The position numbers and the translations under genes were made by a program. The notes below the pieces were generated by a model that was given only the letters and a program-made list of their open reading frames with translations, ran no database searches and was not told where the DNA came from. 33,073 bases of DNA from Candidatus Sulfotelmatobacter sp. (GTDB lineage Bacteria > Eisenbacteria > RBG-16-71-46). The DNA lies in contig DATKAB010000023.1 in NCBI GenBank assembly GCA_035498555.1, positions 1 through 33,073 on the forward strand, given 5' to 3'. Each line of letters opens with the position of its first letter. Position 1 is the stretch's first letter. Shown in pieces: positions 2,685 through 13,940 of the stretch.

Positions 2685-5600
2685 CTACCTCTCGACCCCG
2701 CTCCCCACGAACGCTCCCCAGTAGAACGGCGCGTCGCTCTCGCCACGTTCGCGGCGCGCGTCGAGCACGACCAGATCCGCTGCCCGCACCGAGGCCGCCA
2801 CATCGAGCCCGCGCCGCAACCGGGCGGCGTAGAACGCGCGCATCCACTCGCGCGTGGCCACGTCGTCCACGGCCCACAGGCTCATGAGCACGGTGCGCAC
2901 GCCGGCGATCTGAAATCCGCGCCGCAACCCGAGCACGCCTTCGCCCGCGCGCACGTCGCCACGCCCGGTCTCGCACGCCGAAAGCACGGCCAGCTCGACG
3001 CCGGAAAGATCGAGCTTCGCTATCTCGTCGGCGGTGAGAATGCCGTCGGCGGCGCCGTTCGCTGCGCGCGCCCGCTGATTGGCGCCGGCGAGCGCGAGGC
3101 CGGAGCGCAACAGCGGGTTCTCGTAGGCCACGGTGTCGGCCACGCGGACACCGCTCGCGTTCACTCCGCCGCACACGTTGGGCAGAAAGAAGCCGTGCGT
3201 CGCGAGGTGGAGCCAGCGCGCTTCGGGCGCCAGCTCCCGAAACGCGGCCTCGCTCGCCCCGCCGCGCGACAGCACCCGCGCGGAATCGCGCGAAGCAGCG
3301 CGCCAGGCGGCCGCCACCGAGTCGGCTTCGAGCCCGGATTCGGGCAGACGCTCGAAGCGGAGCGAGCGGAAGTCGGCGCAATCGGACGCGGCGGAACGCG
3401 GCGCCGCAACGCCAGGCTCGCGCGGCTCGGACAAGACACCACCTTCGCGCGGCTCGGACAAGACTCCACGCTCGCGCGGCTCGGACAAGACCCCACGCTC
3501 GCGCGGCTCGGACGTGGCTCCACGTGACGGCGCCGGCGGACCAGTCGCGGCGACACCATCGAAATCCGCATCGCCGACCGCGAGCAGGCCGCGCCCACTG
3601 ATCGCACCCGCGCTCGGGCGCAGCAGAACATCCCGCTCGGCCGAGAGCAACTGAATCGGTGGCGCTTCCTCGACGAGATACTTGCCGGCCGCCGCACCCG
3701 GCAATGCCCCGAAGTTCAGAAGCAGGAGCGCCCCGTCGGGCACGATGAGCAGTTCCTGTGACGGTGGCACCGCCTTCGCCACCGGATCCCACACCAGCCT
3801 CCGCGCCTCGAGCCCGAGCTTGCGAAGGCGCTGGGCGTCGGTCGCGCGCCTGAGAGGATTGGGTCGCGTGCTGGCCGCGCGCACGAACCGCGCGACCGCG
3901 GAGTCGATTCGGGCTGCCGCCCCGAGGGCCACTGCCCTCACGCGGTGCTCGCCGCCGACCGCCACAAACGCCACGTAGCCTGCTCGCGAGGGCTCCGCGT
4001 CGCGCCGCAGGTACCAGCCGAAGTCCTGCCCGGCAGCCGGCGCCTGGAAGTACCGCGCGAACGCAATCAGCGCCCGCCCGTGCTGAACCTGCCCGTGGAC
4101 CGTCATGAGCGCCGATCCCGGCGGCGCATCGAGCAACTGGAACTGGCTGTAGCGGGAGGCAAGCCACACTTCGAACCGTTCCTTGCGTTCGCGCACTTCC
4201 CTCAATCTCGAGCGCCCCGATCCCGTCGCATCGGCGCCGCTCTGCAGCAGCCAGCCGAGCTGCTCGCTCGCAGCGTTCAACGAATCGGCGTAGGCCGCAC
4301 CCGCCGAATCGAGCCCCGCCGCGATCGCGCGATGCCGCCGCGCCATTTCATCGAGCACGCGGGCCCGCGAATTGATCTGCGCTTCCCAGGCGAGCTGCAC
4401 GAGCGTCGAGTCGCCCGGATGATCCGCGGCGATCGACAAGGCGAGATCGAGCCCCGAAGGCCGCGTGGCGGCGTAGCTCAACGCCAGCCGTTCCTCCAGC
4501 ACCCGCGCCGTCGAGCGGAAGCGATCGAGCGCCGCCGCCTCGCCGCGGGTCGCCGCAGCCAGCGCTGAAGCATCGTTGCCGCCGGCGCGCTCGATCGAGG
4601 CCAGCTGCACCAGACTGGCCGCGGTCTCGGGATGATTCTCGCCGAGCGCCTTCTGGCGCAGCGCGAACGCGCGCTCCGCGTCGGAGTCGGCCGGCGCCAA
4701 CCGGCCCTGCGCGAGCCAGAGATTCGCGCGGCTGAACAGCACGCGCGCCACCTCGGGCGCGTCGGGGCCGTAGGCCTTGACCCGAATCGCGAGCGCGCGA
4801 TCGAGCGTCGATTCGGCGCGCGCGTATTCGTGACGTGCGATCAACAGCCCGCCGAGATCATCGAGAGGCGCCGCCAGGTCGGGGTGATCGCGCCCCTCGA
4901 CCTCTTCGCCCAGGGCGATCGCGCGCTCGAGATCGCGCATCGCGGCGAGCGTGTCGCCGGCGACGATCTCCAGCCCCGCGAGATTCCCGAGCGTGAACGC
5001 GAAGTTCACGTGCTGCGGGCCGAGCTTCTTCTCGACCACGTCGAGCGCGCGCTGATAGAGAAATCGCGCGCGATCGAGATCGCCCATCTCGGTCAGCACG
5101 TTGGCGAGATTGTTGTAGTTGAAGACGAGATCGGGACTGTCGAGCCCGAGCGCCTTCTCGCGGATGCCGAGCGCCCGCTCGTAGAGCGGCCGGCACTCCG
5201 ACCAGCGGCCGGTCTTGTGATACATCACGCCCAGGCTGTTCATGGCGTTGCCGAGCTGGGCGCTCTCGGCGCCGTAGAGCGTTTCGGCCACCGCGATCTC
5301 GCGGCGGTAGAGCTGCTCGGCGAGCGCGAATTCCGACTCGTTCTCGTAGATGTTGGCGAGATAATGAAGCCCGCGCAGCACCGAAATGTGCCGATTGCCG
5401 TACGCCTTCTCGCACTGCGCGAGGCCGCGCTCGGCCAGCGGGCGCGCGGCCTCCCAGTCGCCCTCGCGATAGAGGATGCGCGCCTGCATGATGAGGCTCG
5501 AGCCGGCCTGCGGACTCTCGGCGCCGTAGAGCCCGGTGTTCGCATCGACCGCCTGCTGCGGCACGGCGCGGTCGGCAGGCGCTTTCCACCGGCCGGCAGC

Positions 5601-5909
5601 GAGCAGGACCTCGGACAGCAGATCGAGCCCGGCGGCGCGGGCGGTGTCGGCCGCAGCGCCGGCGCCCAACGACGCGAGCCACGCGCGCGTCCGCGACTCG
5701 GCCGGGCCGAGTTGTTGCGACGAAAGCAGCCTGCGGAACGCAGCGAGCGAATCGGTGTTCGCGCTCGCGCAGGCGGGGCGCGGCGCGGCGAGCAGCGCGA
5801 GGGCCAGCGCGGCGCAGGCGGCGACGCGAACCGCAGCCGCGATCGCCGCGAAGACGGTGGCGCGCGAAAGGCGAGCTCCGAGCGCCGAGACGCCGGCTCC
5901 GCGACTCAT
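2685..5909 (-). CDS. Exported TPR-CHAT caspase-like protein
   Basis: 1074 residues if started at the ATG at 5909, which overlaps the TGA of the upstream sigma-factor gene as ATGA and implies translational coupling. A start 42 nt further upstream is also open. Residues ~15-50 are a long hydrophobic signal peptide or anchor ending near ACASA, so the protein should be exported. Residues ~140-460 hold kinesin-light-chain-type ~42-residue TPRs (repeated LGNAMNSLG, NNLANVLTEMGD and ALGIREKALG patterns). The C-terminal ~400 residues are a CHAT domain with the caspase-like dyad: His905 in HLATHGFF and Cys979 in LSACETG, followed by GLRRGFQIAG. Both catalytic residues are present, so it may be an active clan CD protease. 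A 9-residue tandem repeat is inserted in the CHAT region (~795-831). The partner and target are unknown; the linked sigma and anti-sigma genes are the obvious candidates. Confidence 0.9.
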   Translation of the reverse strand: MSRGAGVSALGARLSRATVFAAIAAAVRVAACAALALALLAAPRPACASANTDSLAAFRRLLSSQQLGPAESRTRAWLASLGAGAAADTARAAGLDLLSEVLLAAGRWKAPADRAVPQQAVDANTGLYGAESPQAGSSLIMQARILYREGDWEAARPLAERGLAQCEKAYGNRHISVLRGLHYLANIYENESEFALAEQLYRREIAVAETLYGAESAQLGNAMNSLGVMYHKTGRWSECRPLYERALGIREKALGLDSPDLVFNYNNLANVLTEMGDLDRARFLYQRALDVVEKKLGPQHVNFAFTLGNLAGLEIVAGDTLAAMRDLERAIALGEEVEGRDHPDLAAPLDDLGGLLIARHEYARAESTLDRALAIRVKAYGPDAPEVARVLFSRANLWLAQGRLAPADSDAERAFALRQKALGENHPETAASLVQLASIERAGGNDASALAAATRGEAAALDRFRSTARVLEERLALSYAATRPSGLDLALSIAADHPGDSTLVQLAWEAQINSRARVLDEMARRHRAIAAGLDSAGAAYADSLNAASEQLGWLLQSGADATGSGRSRLREVRERKERFEVWLASRYSQFQLLDAPPGSALMTVHGQVQHGRALIAFARYFQAPAAGQDFGWYLRRDAEPSRAGYVAFVAVGGEHRVRAVALGAAARIDSAVARFVRAASTRPNPLRRATDAQRLRKLGLEARRLVWDPVAKAVPPSQELLIVPDGALLLLNFGALPGAAAGKYLVEEAPPIQLLSAERDVLLRPSAGAISGRGLLAVGDADFDGVAATGPPAPSRGATSEPRERGVLSEPRERGVLSEPREGGVLSEPREPGVAAPRSAASDCADFRSLRFERLPESGLEADSVAAAWRAASRDSARVLSRGGASEAAFRELAPEARWLHLATHGFFLPNVCGGVNASGVRVADTVAYENPLLRSGLALAGANQRARAANGAADGILTADEIAKLDLSGVELAVLSACETGRGDVRAGEGVLGLRRGFQIAGVRTVLMSLWAVDDVATREWMRAFYAARLRRGLDVAASVRAADLVVLDARRERGESDAPFYWGAFVGSGVER
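3419..3526 (-). repeat. 27-bp tandem repeat within the CHAT gene
   Basis: Four units of 27 bp, three of which begin with the identical 19-mer CGCGCGGCTCGGACAAGAC on the plus strand; the fourth is diverged. In the coding frame each unit gives nine residues of the type VLSEPRERG. The array falls after the LLAVGDADFDG strand and before the HLATHGFF catalytic segment, so it should form an extended charged loop in or beside the protease domain. The near identity of the units points to recent expansion. Confidence 0.9.
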
Positions 5910-6460
5910 CCCGCGAGGCGCTGCATGCGCTTCCGGATCGCTTTCAGGCAATTGAACAGCCGCACGCGCATGGTGGATTCCTCACGCCCCTCGCGCTCGG
6001 CGATCGCGGCGTAGTCGAGATCCTCGAAGTAGCGCATGCGGATGATCTCGCGGCACGGCGGATCGAGGTCGAGCAGCGCGGCGCGCAGGCGCGCGCGCTC
6101 GTCACGCGCGAGCAGGCGCTCATGAGGAGTGGGCGTCTCATCGGCCAGCGAGTCGTCGAGCTCGACGTTCTTCCGCCGCCGCCTCACGCGATCGACGCAG
6201 CGGGCGGCGACCAGCGTACGGAGCACCGCGCGCAGGCCCTGCCGCAGCTCGAAGCCCGGCCGGGTGGCGAGCGTCCACACCTGCGCGAGCGCATCCTGCA
6301 CCGCGTCTTCGCGATCCTCGGCGGTGAGCCCGAAGCCGCGGAAGTAGGCGGTCTCCCGCGCCCAGCGCGTGGCGGTGCGCACCGCGGCCGGCTCGCCGGA
6401 AAGGAAGCGGCGCAGGAACGAATCGTCCTGCTCGCGCGGCAGGGTGGACGAGCTATTCAC
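5906..6460 (-). CDS. ECF-type RNA polymerase sigma factor
   Basis: 184 residues from a GTG start at 6460, which has GGGAGG three bases upstream (6464-6469). Longer starts would translate the intergenic tandem repeat and are unlikely. Region 2 spans ~50-105 (EDAVQDALAQVW, then a core ending CVDRVRRRRK). Region 4 spans ~130-182 (DLDPPCREIIRMRYFEDLDYAAIA and a recognition helix ending RLFNCLKAIRK). There is no region 1.1 or 3, as expected for an ECF factor. The stop overlaps the start of the TPR-CHAT gene, so the two are surely co-expressed. A divergently transcribed membrane protein with zinc-finger anti-sigma motifs lies 281 bp away, which suggests it controls this factor. Which ECF group it belongs to cannot be decided by eye. 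Confidence 0.93.
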   Translation of the reverse strand: MNSSSTLPREQDDSFLRRFLSGEPAAVRTATRWARETAYFRGFGLTAEDREDAVQDALAQVWTLATRPGFELRQGLRAVLRTLVAARCVDRVRRRRKNVELDDSLADETPTPHERLLARDERARLRAALLDLDPPCREIIRMRYFEDLDYAAIAEREGREESTMRVRLFNCLKAIRKRMQRLAG

Positions 6461-6590
6461 GTGCCTCCCACGAACTTCGGGCCCCGCGCGTGGCGGGGTC
6501 GGACCGGCCTCATTACTATAGCCGCAAACGCGCGCACCGCTCCTGCGACGGAGTGCGGGAGAGGGGAGTGTGCGCGGCGCGGCATTCAGG

Positions 6591-6713
6591 GCGCGCTGGC
6601 TGGTGCGCGCGAGCTGGTGCGCGCTGGCTGGCGCGCGAGCTGGTGCGCGCTGAATGGTGCGCGCGAGCTGGTGCGCGCTGGCTGGTGCGCGCTGGCTGGT
6701 GCGCGCCAGGAGT
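6591..6713. repeat. Array of nine ~14-bp GCGCGC-rich tandem repeats between divergent sigma and anti-sigma genes
   Basis: Nine units read one after another. Two main variants, GCGCGCTGGCTGGT and GCGCGCGAGCTGGT, roughly alternate. One unit is 12 bp (6619-6630), one carries TGAA (6645-6658), and the last is degenerate. All frames through it are open and give low-complexity Ala/Arg/Trp peptides, which explains apparent N-terminal extensions of both flanking genes; I do not believe these are translated. The array lies in the intergenic region shared by the divergent sigma/CHAT and anti-sigma units, closer to the anti-sigma start. Alternating purine-pyrimidine GCGCGC cores could favour Z-DNA or act as protein-binding iterons; this is inference. 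Confidence 0.9.
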
Positions 6714-6741
6714 GCGCGCACCCAAGGGCGTGGAGGTCGCG

Positions 6742-7662
6742 ATGGATCATTCGACCGCGGAGACGTTGCTCGACGACTGGCTGTGGGGCCGCCTGCCGCC
6801 CGAGCGCGCGAGCGAAGTCGAGACGCACGTGGCCGGCTGCGCCGAATGCGCGGCCCACGCCGAATTGATGCGCGGGCTCAAGCGCGAGGTGAAAGAGCAC
6901 GGCGAGGCGCTGTTCTCGGCGCACCTCACCGGCGACGAGCTGGCGCGACTGGAATTGCGAGCGGATTCGCTCTCGATCGCCGACGCGGCGCGGTTGGGCG
7001 CCCACGTGCGCGCCTGCCCCACCTGCAGCGCCGAGCGCGCGATGATTCGCGGGGCGGCCGGCCCCGCGCCATGGCGCGCGCTCAAGGCGTGGTATTCGAT
7101 CGCCGATCAGCCGAGCGCCTGGATCAAGCCGGCGCTCGCGATGTTCGCAATTCTGCTCGCGTGGCCGGCGTATCTCGGCGTGGTCGAATATCCGCGCGAG
7201 AAGCTCGCGGCCGAGCAGGCGCGCGCCGAGGCGGCGCGCGAGCTGGCGCACACGCCGCCCACGCCCGGCGCCGAGGTTCCGCCGGGCAAGCAGATCTGGA
7301 ACGGCGGCAGCGCCGCGGTGCTGGTGCTGACCGGCGCGACCCGCGGCGCGAGTGCGGCAGTGCCCTCGGCCAGGCTGCGTGACGGCCAGCCCGGACTCAC
7401 CATCGTCACCGACCGGCACATCATGGGGCCCGACACGCTGCTCGTGACACTTTTCGACGACCAGCACCGGCCGGTGTGGAAGCAGCCGGTGCCGGCCACC
7501 GAGTTGTGGGACGCGAACGCCCGTCTCACCAGCTTGATGATCCCGTCGCCCAATCTCACCCCCGGCGTCTACTCGATCGAGATCGGCGCGCCGGGCGGCG
7601 CCGCGCCCGGCTCGACCGCCGCTCCGCCCCAGTTCCAGGCGCGATTCCGGATCGCGCCGTAG
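6742..7662 (+). CDS. Membrane anti-sigma-like protein with two zinc-finger (ZAS/HC2) motifs
   Basis: 306 residues from the ATG at 6742, with GGAGG at 6732-6736. Residues 29-36 carry H-x3-C-x2-C (HVAGCAEC) and residues 88-95 a second copy (HVRACPTC), the signature of zinc-binding anti-sigma domains. Having two is unusual. A single transmembrane segment lies at ~130-148, followed by a coiled Ala/Glu stretch and a ~150-residue extracytoplasmic domain rich in beta-strand and proline with no family I recognise. The topology predicts a cytoplasmic sigma-binding N-terminus and an external sensor or substrate domain. It is divergent from the ECF sigma/CHAT operon, so the likely role is to hold that sigma factor inactive, with release triggered from outside. 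The role is inferred from motifs and position. Confidence 0.8.
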   Translation: MDHSTAETLLDDWLWGRLPPERASEVETHVAGCAECAAHAELMRGLKREVKEHGEALFSAHLTGDELARLELRADSLSIADAARLGAHVRACPTCSAERAMIRGAAGPAPWRALKAWYSIADQPSAWIKPALAMFAILLAWPAYLGVVEYPREKLAAEQARAEAARELAHTPPTPGAEVPPGKQIWNGGSAAVLVLTGATRGASAAVPSARLRDGQPGLTIVTDRHIMGPDTLLVTLFDDQHRPVWKQPVPATELWDANARLTSLMIPSPNLTPGVYSIEIGAPGGAAPGSTAAPPQFQARFRIAP

Positions 7663-7799: not shown

Positions 7800-10700
7800 A
7801 TGCGTTCGCTCATCGTCACCGCGCTCTTCGCCGCCGCCATCGCCCCACTCGAAGCACCGCTGCTCACTCGCGCCGCATTCGCCGATGACGCGGTGTTCCA
7901 GTTCCAAAACAACGCCAATCCAGCAGGCAATTGGAGCTACGGCTACTCGCCCGGTCCCGGCATGGGATTCAACCTGTTCACGACCGAAACCAACCTGGGC
8001 GGAGGCCTGAATCGCTGGAGTGCTCCCAACGGCGCCTCGCTCTCGATGGCGTGCTCTCCAGTGGTGAACGAGCCGGGCGTGACGATGGTGGGAAGCGTGC
8101 TGAGCGCGCGGCTGGCCGCGAATCCGAACCAGACGGTGCTGCGCTGGACCGCGCCCTCCAACGACACGTGGCACGTTCGCGCGCGCTTCACCTCCGAGGC
8201 CGGCTACCTCGGGGCCAGCGGTGCCTCATCCGCGAACGGAACGCAGGCGAACCAACGCCTCGGCTGGGCGGTGGCGGTCGGGGACGTAAATGGCGACGGC
8301 TACGGCGACGTCGTCGCCGGGACCAACGTGTGGTCGAACTCCCAGGTGAACGAAGGCCAGATCGAGCTGTTCCTGGGCGGGGCGAACGGAATTTCGCCGT
8401 CGCCGGCGTGGTCCTACGAGCCCAACGTGGTCGATCAGTATGCGGGGATGAGCGTGGCGGTCGCAGACTTCGATCGCGATGGCTACGCCGACATCGCCGA
8501 AGGCGAGCCGGGCACCGGTGCGGTGCCGGGCAACGTGCGCATCTTCAAGGGCAGCTCGACGTTCCCGGCGCTGAGTTCCACGCGCAGCGGAAGCTCGGCG
8601 TGGCAGTTCGGAACAGCGCTCGCTACCGGCGACTTCAATGGCGACGGCTACCCGGATCTGGCGGTCGGATTGCCGGGAGCGAATGCGGTCGAAGTCGCGT
8701 ATGGCGGATCCACTGGTCTCGGCGCGTTCGGACCCATGATCCACTCGCCCGATCCCGGGTCGAACTTCTTCGGCCAGTCGCTCGCCAGTACAGGTGACGT
8801 GAACGGCGACGGCAAAGACGATCTGATCGTGGGGGCCCAAGCGTACAGTAGCTACCTCGGTCGGGCCTACGTGTTCATGGGATCGTCGGGTGGCGTCTCG
8901 GTCACTCCGTCCTGGACCTTTACCGGTCTCATCGCGAATGGGGAGCTGGGATTCGCCGTGTCGTCGGCCGGCGACGAGAATCACGACGGCTACGCCGACG
9001 TGCTGGTGGGTGCACCCTACGAGAGCAGCGGCGGCACCAATGCCGGAGCGGTGCGGTTGTTCCGGGGCAGCTCCACCGGTCTCTCGACGAGCCCGGTGTG
9101 GACGTGGTTTGGAGCGCCGAACAGCAACGCCGGCATGGCGCTCTCGCCGGCCGGCGACGTGGACGGCGACGGCTACGCCGACTTCCTGATTGGAGCGCCC
9201 GGCTACACCCATCCCGAGGTGAACGAGGGCGAGGCGTTTCTCTATCTGGGCGGATCGGGCGCGACCCCGACGCTTCACTCCACCTTCGAGATGAATCAGG
9301 CGAACGCGCACTGCGGGCGTGCCCTGGCCTCGGGCGACGTGAACGGCGATCTGACGCCCGATCTGGTGGTGGTCGCGACCGACTACAAGGCCGGAAGCAC
9401 GGCGAGCGCCGGGCGCATCTTGATGGAGATGGGCGCCGGGCCGCCGCGGCCTCCCTTCGCGCGCACCGTCCTGCGCCTGTACGCCGATGCCGTGATGATC
9501 GCGCAGGACACGCTCAACACCGCGACCGGGCGCGACACGGTGACGCTGGAAGCCACGGTGGCCGAGAACGCCGGCCACACGATCGACATCGAGGTGGGCG
9601 ACAACGGCGGCCTGCTCCCTTACGAGGCGGTCGGGATCGACGCCTCGATCGAGACCAACGCTACGCCCGCCAATCCGCTCGGGCCGGTGATCACGCTCGG
9701 CACCAGCCGGTTCGCGTCGATTCTGGGGCCGCCGGCGTTCGAGGCCGCGGCATTCGATCCGATCCATCGCTATCTGGCCTCGAACGGTCATCTCTACGAC
9801 GTGTGCGGGAATCTCCATTCGGCCGGTCCCGACGGACCCGGCATCGCCTGGGACATGGTGACGCAGAAGTTCTGGAACATCTCGTTCGACGCTGGCAACC
9901 AGCGCTGGGTGGTGGCGAGCTGGGACACCGCGACCGCCACCTTCACCACCGTGTTCAACATCCCGCGCGTGCTGACGGTGCCGGTAACCGGCGCGGACAC
10001 GCTGGAAGACGCGCGCGGCATCGCGGTGGATTCAAGCTACGTCTACGTGGTCGACGCGGGGCCGGATGGCCTCGTGCCGCGGGCCAACGCCTGGTTCAAG
10101 TTCACGCGGGCAGGGCAGGCGGTGGCATCGCTCAAGGGTTCGTCGTTCGCGGCCAATTCGAGCTACGACATCGTCGACGACATCGTCTACTGCCCGTTCG
10201 CCTCGCCCACCGAGCCCGGCCGCTTCCTGGTCGCCGTGCAGCACACCGGCATTCTCGTGCTCGACGCGAACGGCGCGATGCGCGACACCGCTTACTGGCG
10301 CTCGCAGGGGCTACCGGGCGTCAATGCCCCGCGGGCGGTGGCGGGCATCGCCATCGATCCGGTGAGCGGCGATCTGTTCGTCGAGGACAACGACCGCGGT
10401 CTGACGCGCCGCTGGGTACGGCTGCCCGACGGGCCGACGACGTACCTGTTTGGCGACAACGATCCGATCATGCTCGAGCTGCCGGTTACCGAGTGCACCG
10501 CCAGCAGCGCGCTGTTCCAGGACCCGATCGAGCCCTCATCCATGTACTGCCCGCAGACACCATTCTGCTTCGGTGTCGCGTTCCGCACCGCCGACATGCG
10601 CGGCTACACCGTGGACTATTCGACCGGCACGCTGTGGAAGTTCGATCCGCGCGGCGGACGCGGCACGCGTGTGGGCGAGACCGGGCTGCAGGGCGTGTGG

Positions 10701-11441
10701 GGACTGGCCTACGACGCGAGCCGCGATCGGCTCTACGGCGCGCAGAACGTCACCGGCACCCAGATATGGAGCATCAATCCGCGCACCGCGGTGGCGACCG
10801 CGCTGCCACAGTTGACGCCCTACTCGGTGACCGACATCGGCTTCGAGCCCAACAGCGGACTGATCTACGCGGTGTCGGGCGGCGGCTCGACCGCGCGCCT
10901 GATCAGCATCGATCGCGACACCGGCGCCGCGACCGTGGTCGGGCCGACCCACGATGTGCGCGGTCTCGACTACGACCCGGTGCGCGGCGCGCTGGTGGGG
11001 ATCACCTACGACGACTCGCTGTTCAGCATCAATCCCGGCACCGGGGCGGCGAGTCTGATCACCAGGCTGCCGTGGACGATGGGCTGGGAGGGACTCGCGG
11101 TCGGGCTCGTCGGCGTCGCCGGCTCGACCGACGTGCCGCTGGCGCAGGGCGGCGCGCGCATGGGCACGCCGCTCGCGCTGGCGGTCGCGCCGCAACCGAG
11201 CCACGCCAGCGCTTCGCTCACTTTCGCGCTGTTCGAGAACGCACGCGTGAGGCTCGACATCTACGACGTGAGCGGCCGGCACGTGCGCCGTGTAGTGGAT
11301 GGGGCGTTCACGCCCGGCGCCCACACGCTGGCCTGGGACGGCCGCGGCGATTCTGGCGAGGCCGCCGCCGCCGGAATCTACTTCGTGCGGCTCGAGGCGG
11401 GCGGAAGGAACGTCACGGCGCGCGTCGTGAGGATCCGATAG
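7800..11441 (+). CDS. Secreted FG-GAP beta-propeller protein with FlgD-like C-terminal sorting domain
   Basis: 1213 residues; GGGAGG lies 5 nt before the ATG. A signal peptide is likely cleaved near AFA28/D29. Residues ~155-545 contain seven FG-GAP / integrin-alpha-type calcium loops (DVNGDGYGD, DFDRDGYAD, DFNGDGYPD, DVNGDGKDD, DENHDGYAD, DVDGDGYAD, DVNGDLTPD), as for a seven-bladed propeller. Residues ~650-1110 look like a second beta-propeller, with repeated short strands around aromatic and DG/NP turns. The last ~80 residues are a FlgD-Ig-like domain (DIYDVSGRHVRR, then GAHTLAWDGR, then GIYFVRL) ending in Arg. The C-terminal domain is typical of cell-surface or secreted cargo in FCB-group bacteria. 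Extracellular binding or adhesion is plausible, but no ligand can be named. Confidence 0.9.
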   Translation: MRSLIVTALFAAAIAPLEAPLLTRAAFADDAVFQFQNNANPAGNWSYGYSPGPGMGFNLFTTETNLGGGLNRWSAPNGASLSMACSPVVNEPGVTMVGSVLSARLAANPNQTVLRWTAPSNDTWHVRARFTSEAGYLGASGASSANGTQANQRLGWAVAVGDVNGDGYGDVVAGTNVWSNSQVNEGQIELFLGGANGISPSPAWSYEPNVVDQYAGMSVAVADFDRDGYADIAEGEPGTGAVPGNVRIFKGSSTFPALSSTRSGSSAWQFGTALATGDFNGDGYPDLAVGLPGANAVEVAYGGSTGLGAFGPMIHSPDPGSNFFGQSLASTGDVNGDGKDDLIVGAQAYSSYLGRAYVFMGSSGGVSVTPSWTFTGLIANGELGFAVSSAGDENHDGYADVLVGAPYESSGGTNAGAVRLFRGSSTGLSTSPVWTWFGAPNSNAGMALSPAGDVDGDGYADFLIGAPGYTHPEVNEGEAFLYLGGSGATPTLHSTFEMNQANAHCGRALASGDVNGDLTPDLVVVATDYKAGSTASAGRILMEMGAGPPRPPFARTVLRLYADAVMIAQDTLNTATGRDTVTLEATVAENAGHTIDIEVGDNGGLLPYEAVGIDASIETNATPANPLGPVITLGTSRFASILGPPAFEAAAFDPIHRYLASNGHLYDVCGNLHSAGPDGPGIAWDMVTQKFWNISFDAGNQRWVVASWDTATATFTTVFNIPRVLTVPVTGADTLEDARGIAVDSSYVYVVDAGPDGLVPRANAWFKFTRAGQAVASLKGSSFAANSSYDIVDDIVYCPFASPTEPGRFLVAVQHTGILVLDANGAMRDTAYWRSQGLPGVNAPRAVAGIAIDPVSGDLFVEDNDRGLTRRWVRLPDGPTTYLFGDNDPIMLELPVTECTASSALFQDPIEPSSMYCPQTPFCFGVAFRTADMRGYTVDYSTGTLWKFDPRGGRGTRVGETGLQGVWGLAYDASRDRLYGAQNVTGTQIWSINPRTAVATALPQLTPYSVTDIGFEPNSGLIYAVSGGGSTARLISIDRDTGAATVVGPTHDVRGLDYDPVRGALVGITYDDSLFSINPGTGAASLITRLPWTMGWEGLAVGLVGVAGSTDVPLAQGGARMGTPLALAVAPQPSHASASLTFALFENARVRLDIYDVSGRHVRRVVDGAFTPGAHTLAWDGRGDSGEAAAAGIYFVRLEAGGRNVTARVVRIR

Positions 11442-12801: not shown

Positions 12802-13940
12802 GTGAGCCGTTGGCGCGCCGACCTCCCCTACAACCATCTTCCCGAGCTGCCGCCTCGAATGGAACTCGAGACCAAGGCGGTGCTCAAGCAGTGTGTCGAG
12901 GCCCGCGCCGCTCTGGAGGGCCTCAAGCGTTCGTCCGAGCTGACCCCCAATCCCGCGATGCTCATCAACACGCTTCCGGTGCTGGAGGCGCGGGCTAGCT
13001 CCGAGATCGAGAACATCGTCACCACGGCGGACGCGCTGTTTCAGCACCTCGGAAACGGCGAAAGCGCCGACTCCGCGACACGCGAGGCATTGCGCTATCG
13101 CGAGGCGCTGCTCGAAGGGCATCGATCGCTGGGCAGGCGCCCGGTCTCGGTGCACACGGCCGAGGCCATCTGCACGCGAATCAAGGGCGCCGAGATGTCG
13201 GTTCGGCGGGTTCCGGGAACCGCTCTTCACGGCGCCGCGAGCCAGAGAGTCATCTACACCCCGCCCGACCCGGGTCCGCGGCTACGCGACCTGCTATCGA
13301 ACTGGGAGCGATTCGTTCACGCTGAGGATCCATTGGATCCGCTGGTGCGCATGGCCGTTGCTCACTACCAGTTCGAGGCGATCCATCCGTTCACGGACGG
13401 CAATGGGCGCACGGGCCGCGTGCTGAACAGCCTGATGCTGGTCCAGTGGGGATTGCTTTCGTCACCGATCGTCTACCTGAGCCGCTACTTCATCGCGAAC
13501 AAGCAGGAGTACTACAGTCGCCTGCTCGAGGTGACGCGACGGCCGCGTGGGAGCCGTGGGTGCGCTACGTGGTCCGCGGCGTCGAGGAGACGGCGCGTTG
13601 GACGGCAGGAAAGGTCGAGGCGATTCGCCGGCTAGAGCGCGCCACGGCCGAGTACGTGCAGTCGGCTCTGCCCAAGATCTATAGCCATGAACTGGTCGAA
13701 GCCCTGTTCGAACAGCCATACTGTCGAATCGCTAACCTCGTGACGGCGAAGATTGCCGCCCGTCAGGCTGCCGCGCGATATCTCAACGCGCTGGCTTCGG
13801 GCGGCGTGCTTCAGTCGAAGTCAGTGGGCCGGGAGAAGCTCTTCCTGAACACCCGCTTGCTGCGCTTGCTGACTCAAGAGAGCAACACGTTCGCCGAGTT
13901 CCGCACCGCTTCCATCGAAACCGTGCGGCGGCGTGGCTAA
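12802..13940 (+). pseudogene. fic: Fic-domain AMP transferase gene, interrupted by a single frameshift
   Basis: The GTG start at 12802 has GGAGA 7 nt upstream. Frame 1 gives a Fic N-terminal domain with the inhibitory motif S66-x3-E70-N71, so it is a class II, N-terminally autoinhibited Fic protein. The catalytic loop is HPFTDGNGRTGR with His195. Homology then jumps to another frame between 13531 and 13547: AAWEPWVRYVVRGVEETARW and a C-terminal winged-helix region (RIANLVTAKIAARQAAARY, then VGREKLF) continue to TAA at 13938-13940. One missing base explains the change, and restored it would encode about 380 residues. As written, frame 1 ends at 13635 with an unrelated tail. The catalytic core is intact, so the truncated product might still act on ATP. 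True mutation or consensus error cannot be told apart here. Confidence 0.85.

Follow-up and report, generated by a model that had tools for sequence, protein, structure and literature searches.

Background

In the type III-E CRISPR system CASP/Craspase, Csx29, a TPR-CHAT protease, cleaves Csx30, which inhibits a sigma factor (PMC10028731). The experimental cases of sigma control by a TPR-CHAT protease in the literature we found come from CRISPR type III-E only. RseA and DegS form a similar pair with a protease of another family (PMC10028731), and HetF of Anabaena is able to cleave PatU3, which acts negatively on HetZ (PMC12288457). For sigma group ECF54, a review lists carboxypeptidase, subtilase and CHAT domains in the gene context and reports no anti-sigma (PMC8999054). 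The ECF54 gene context, Craspase and HetF/PatU3 are earlier published hints of the circuit considered here.

We analysed a stretch of 33,073 nucleotides from Candidatus Sulfotelmatobacter sp. (contig DATKAB010000023.1; the whole stretch is called the window below), in which the genes of an ECF sigma factor, a TPR-CHAT protease and a probable membrane anti-sigma lie side by side. We propose, giving it about an even chance, that the TPR-CHAT protein cuts or otherwise regulates the neighbouring anti-sigma, and that the three genes are a signalling cassette, a non-CRISPR analogue of Csx29, Csx30 and CASP-sigma.

The three genes of the window

The TPR-CHAT protease gene (2685..5909, minus strand) encodes 1074 aa and its product is predicted to be exported. 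Pfam CHAT (PF12770) matches it at 1.4e-62, with 212 bits against a curated cut-off of 24, and TPR_12 at 2e-49. By sequence reading and hydropathy, the N-terminus carries a long probable signal peptide, MSRGAGVSALGARLSRATVFAAIAAAVRVAACAALALALLAAPRPACASA (residues 1-51; 5757..5909, minus strand). A TPR array follows at about residues 126-456 (4542..5534, minus strand), supported by Pfam and by matches with the TPRs of kinesin light chain in the PDB, and the CHAT domain (Pfam CHAT positions 7-288) is located at 2697..3806 on the same strand. The predicted catalytic dyad consists of H905 within ATHG (codon 3195..3197, minus strand) and C979 within SACETG (codon 2973..2975, minus strand), both in conserved columns. 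In an alignment of 120 CHAT domains, the His column holds H in 119 and the Cys column holds C in all 120, so that all but one have both residues of the dyad. An earlier note on this DNA had described an exported CHAT protein with a signal peptide, TPRs and a His/Cys dyad; Pfam, hydropathy and the conserved columns agree with it, and its numbering of the cysteine as Cys979 is right. A 27-bp tandem repeat (3412-3524) within the CHAT domain encodes PRERGVLSE units and is inserted a short way before the catalytic His.

The ECF sigma factor gene (5906..6460, minus strand) starts with GTG at 6460 and encodes 184 aa. The NCBIfam profile sigma70-ECF (TIGR02937) matches at 1.5e-22, with 80 bits against a cut-off of 42.9, and the domain content is region 2 and region 4 only (Sigma70_r4_2, 8.7e-11; region 2 weak, 0.029). 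The sigma stop ends at 5906 and the ATG of the CHAT gene is at 5909, so that both share ATGA in a 4-nt overlap, as the same note had read it. Because of this overlap the CHAT gene is likely co-transcribed with the sigma gene and autoregulated, which speaks for a different reading, with CHAT as an effector. In that case some other sensor or protease would act on the membrane anti-sigma and free the sigma factor, which would then drive expression of an exported CHAT protein that cleaves other envelope proteins. We regard this reading as a serious but less probable one.

Between the sigma gene and the divergent gene lies an intergenic region (6461..6741, no strand assigned), which holds a tandem array of direct repeats at 6591-6706 with 8.4 copies of the 14-bp unit GCGCGCTGGCTGGT. 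The 14-bp pattern was sought across the whole genome and is present at this place only.

The divergent gene (6742..7662, plus strand; ATG at 6742) encodes a protein of 306 aa, probably a one-pass membrane anti-sigma with a double zinc finger. Zinc finger 1 comprises H3 and H29-x3-C33-x2-C36 (6748..6849, plus strand), and zinc finger 2 comprises H61 and H88-x3-C92-x2-C95 (6922..7026, plus strand); both are invariant in five relatives. The zf-HC2 profile matches the protein in two stretches (5e-7). Each finger has an extra conserved His (H3, H61) upstream of H-x3-C-x2-C, and the ZAS pattern, i.e. an N-terminal H-x3-C-x2-C with a further His, is thus found twice. A transmembrane helix is predicted at about residues 129-147 (7126..7182, plus strand; hydropathy 1.89 over 19 residues). 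The earlier note's picture of a one-pass membrane protein with two H-x3-C-x2-C motifs is therefore borne out by zf-HC2, the one hydrophobic stretch and the invariant residues.

Zinc finger 2 also aligns with the profile of the soluble anti-sigmas described below (E 2e-6). In a PDB search with a profile of the divergent protein and four relatives, RslA, ChrR, RsiW and DdvA were matched weakly (best E 0.011), and every match at E<=1, all of them weak, is a ZAS-type anti-sigma. The structure model of the protein has a mean pLDDT of 63 and is well predicted in the N-terminal finger only; an outer beta-rich, Ig-like domain at about residues 185-306 (7294..7659, plus strand) is suggested by this low-confidence model, the best Foldseek matches of which are mostly Ig/CopC-like beta sandwiches. 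Taken together, the product of the divergent gene is probably an anti-sigma of the ZAS kind, with inhibition of the sigma factor predicted from its family.

Downstream of the anti-sigma gene by 138 bp and in the same direction, a gene at 7800-11441 encodes a secreted protein of FG-GAP repeats that has a FlgD-type domain at its C-terminus, possibly a member of the anti-sigma operon or regulon. An ORF at 12802-13635 contains a Fic-like HPFTDGNGRTGR motif, read from the sequence.

The same locus in a second genus

The divergent protein was searched in 21 genomes of the order, and one full-length relative was found, which belongs to a different genus (G009) within the family. At this locus (L010) the sigma gene is again divergent from the anti-sigma gene, and the identity is 41% for the anti-sigma and 46% for the sigma factor. 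A gene starts on the sigma stop (GTGA), begins MRLAALVVAGLLAASAVAEAQA..., which reads as a signal peptide; the contig ends about 100 bases on, so only the signal-peptide part of this cut gene is readable. Of the window's own divergent layout, the sigma/anti-sigma pair recurs in one other genus, where the gene in the position of CHAT is truncated by the end of the contig. A scan of named genomes for the locus returned two unrelated loci only. The divergent pair has been kept in another genus, which argues that the arrangement in the window is more than chance.

Linkage of sigma and CHAT genes across the phylum

CHAT genes were located in the order and then in the phylum, and about 140 neighbourhoods were read, with sigma, kinase and CHAT genes called by profiles built in this analysis. 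A sigma gene was counted as a neighbour if it lay within 3.5 kb upstream or 1.5 kb downstream of CHAT. Among CHAT genes with complete neighbourhoods in the window's phylum, 51 of 74 have a sigma gene nearby and 23 of 74 have none. In a control phylum the same profile, which was trained on the window's phylum and may undercount here, finds a sigma gene in 3 of 40 neighbourhoods, one of the three being doubtful. This doubtful match, at L188, looks by sequence reading only more like a BlaI-type regulator than like a sigma factor.

The gene layouts are repeated: sigma, anti-sigma, CHAT; CHAT, sigma, anti-sigma; and sigma, kinase, CHAT, along with divergent or convergent forms, and 4-nt overlaps are frequent among the cassette genes. 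Conservation of gene order in relatives, which the earlier note had named as a check, was thus found across the phylum for ECF sigma, anti-sigma and TPR-CHAT genes, in several orders. Moreover, sigma and CHAT-domain distances are correlated over 60 coupled loci (Mantel r 0.64; reached by 0 of 5000 permutations), and the result holds when permutation is confined within layout classes. Sigma and CHAT are co-inherited, with the correlation coming partly from the shared history of the genomes.

These data bear on whether the genes are chance neighbours that work apart. The window's exact sigma/anti-sigma subtype is found in two genera only, and its genome (G000; 3.8 Mb) is rich in both families, with 11 CHAT matches and 25 sigma region-4 matches; however, linkage expected at this density is about 5%, and the observed linkage is far above both this rate and the control phylum, besides the co-inheritance and the frequent 4-nt overlaps. 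Chance linkage was rejected on sigma density, the control phylum and co-inheritance, and we hold the chance reading to be very improbable.

The effector reading draws more from the same neighbourhoods. At L042:3510-9044 and similar loci, a sigma gene is followed by a membrane Ser/Thr kinase with a DUF4384 outer domain and an exported CHAT, and the kinase occupies the place of the anti-sigma in other cassettes. Some CHAT genes adjoin such a sigma/kinase set with no anti-sigma, and in many loci CHAT stands alone; the kinase cassettes and the CHAT genes with no sigma neighbour keep the effector reading viable.

In another phylum, L194:5059-9002 contains in a row a sigma gene, a gene for a 140-aa one-pass membrane protein without zinc motif, and an exported CHAT gene.

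The soluble subtype and its subtilase

In some cassettes the anti-sigma is predicted to be soluble. In 10 of 10 tested soluble cassettes (L078, L062, L072, L081, L130, L133, L137, L143, L145 and L146), CHAT is followed by an exported-looking S8 subtilase gene; in the remaining ones the next gene is different or uncallable. The small partner proteins of these cassettes match RsiW, RslA and ChrR N-terminally (E 7.6e-4 to 4e-3), and in the model of one of them (pLDDT 83) the top Foldseek match is ChrR (E 2.4e-4, with low TM-scores). CarboxypepD_reg is matched by 4 of 13 soluble partners, and those of L133, L137, L143 and L150 are without the zinc motif. By analogy, the carboxypeptidase-annotated neighbour of ECF54 may be the anti-sigma of a soluble cassette.

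Agreement of predicted membrane side between anti-sigma and CHAT

Over the same-strand cassettes plus the window, a soluble anti-sigma goes with a CHAT protein without signal peptide in 18 of 18 cases, and a membrane anti-sigma with an exported CHAT protein in 30 of 30, with zero mismatches (Fisher 1.4e-13, computed on non-independent rows). The classes were assigned by hand from hydropathy values and N-termini; both signal peptides and membrane helices were called from hydropathy, with signal-peptide starts checked by hand. Over 19 residues, the highest hydropathy of the soluble anti-sigmas lies at 0.48-1.30 and that of the membrane anti-sigmas at 1.41-2.59. L089 (1.41) was assigned because it resembles its class, and L146 on the basis of a re-called ORF (1.38). 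L139, with a cytosolic CHAT and an ambiguous anti-sigma call, was excluded from the count. The outer domains vary by subtype and are Ig-like, FnIII-like or CarboxypepD_reg-like, a point against the proposed regulation.

On the CHAT tree each trait changes twice, at a large cytosolic clade and at L127, which sits nested among exported relatives, and both change together each time. With only two independent co-changes a sign test cannot reach significance; the agreement on the tree is suggestive and is not statistically independent evidence. At L122 a membrane anti-sigma is divergent from a CHAT gene with no clear signal peptide and an uncertain start, which may be a true exception. L024 was rejected as a counter-example because its cytosolic-type CHAT begins behind its soluble anti-sigma.

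The subtilase of the soluble cassettes is exported, whereas CHAT stays inside; of the two proteases, CHAT is thus the one that keeps to the side of the anti-sigma. The exported subtilase after CHAT looks like an effector itself, which lends some support to the effector reading; however, that reading gives no reason why CHAT and anti-sigma share a membrane side which the subtilase does not share.

Proposed mechanism and its meaning

Regulation of the anti-sigma by CHAT would proceed as follows. The cytoplasmic double zinc finger of the membrane protein would hold the ECF sigma factor inactive, as known for its family. The exported TPR-CHAT protein may sense a stimulus or a partner through its TPR superhelix, and would then cut, or otherwise act on, the outer part of the anti-sigma. 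The sigma factor would be released as a result, directly or via further proteolysis. The cassette of the window would belong to a family that has expanded in the phylum, with CHAT on the same membrane side as its anti-sigma.

We favour a protease on three grounds. The location of CHAT tracks that of the anti-sigma, which the location of the subtilase does not; the catalytic dyad has been retained; and inhibitors of transcriptional regulators are known targets of two CHAT-type proteases (PMC10028731, PMC12288457). The earlier note had left it between an exported CHAT protein that cuts the outer domain of the anti-sigma and one that the sigma factor merely drives; the topology agreement favours the first, with only two independent changes behind it. 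CHAT might also be a sensor or scaffold which binds the anti-sigma, a cut not being the signal: TPR arrays are binding modules, and agreement in topology needs contact and not cleavage. The catalytic dyad is nearly invariant, however, and we judge this reading improbable.

A wider statement is also possible, which we hold tentatively: the whole lineage may use an expanded non-CRISPR TPR-CHAT family as dedicated anti-sigma proteases, each in the compartment of its own anti-sigma, outside for the membrane type and inside for the soluble type. Many paralogous ECF/anti-sigma/CHAT cassettes in one lineage would place the circuit in ordinary signalling, and would make caspase-like enzymes of the envelope candidates for site-1 proteases. 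To our knowledge, the known site-1 proteases of RsiW and RseA belong to families other than CHAT. The cassettes may also provide an anti-sigma for an ECF group that is regarded as lacking one.

Comparison with known systems

Like RsiW and RslA, the divergent protein combines zinc motifs and a cytoplasmic N-terminus with a single membrane helix and an outer domain, and it resembles ChrR, a soluble ZAS anti-sigma, in the zinc motif, with profile matches to all three. It differs from these ZAS anti-sigmas in having two tandem zinc fingers, a divergent gene and a CHAT neighbour.

ECF54 is resembled by the soluble subtype in gene context (sigma, anti-sigma, CHAT, subtilase), whereas the window has a membrane anti-sigma beside CHAT. 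No subtilase gene was seen beside the window's CHAT, sigma and anti-sigma genes, so its gene context differs from the one reported for ECF54.

HetF is the namesake of CHAT and can cut the inhibitor of a regulator, but HetF/PatU3 involves no sigma factor or zinc anti-sigma and serves a different process.

A Craspase-like CRISPR locus was rejected, since the window's genome gave no PF03787 match for a RAMP (Cas7-11) effector. CASP/Craspase and the window share the combination of a TPR-CHAT gene with the genes of an ECF sigma factor and of its inhibitor, known in the one and probable in the other. In the window, however, CHAT is predicted to be exported, the inhibitor would be a zinc-finger membrane protein and there is no RNA guide, and cleavage of the inhibitor is a prediction. 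If the lineage-wide use of such anti-sigma proteases is true, the circuit would be a general one, and Craspase a version of it coupled to CRISPR.
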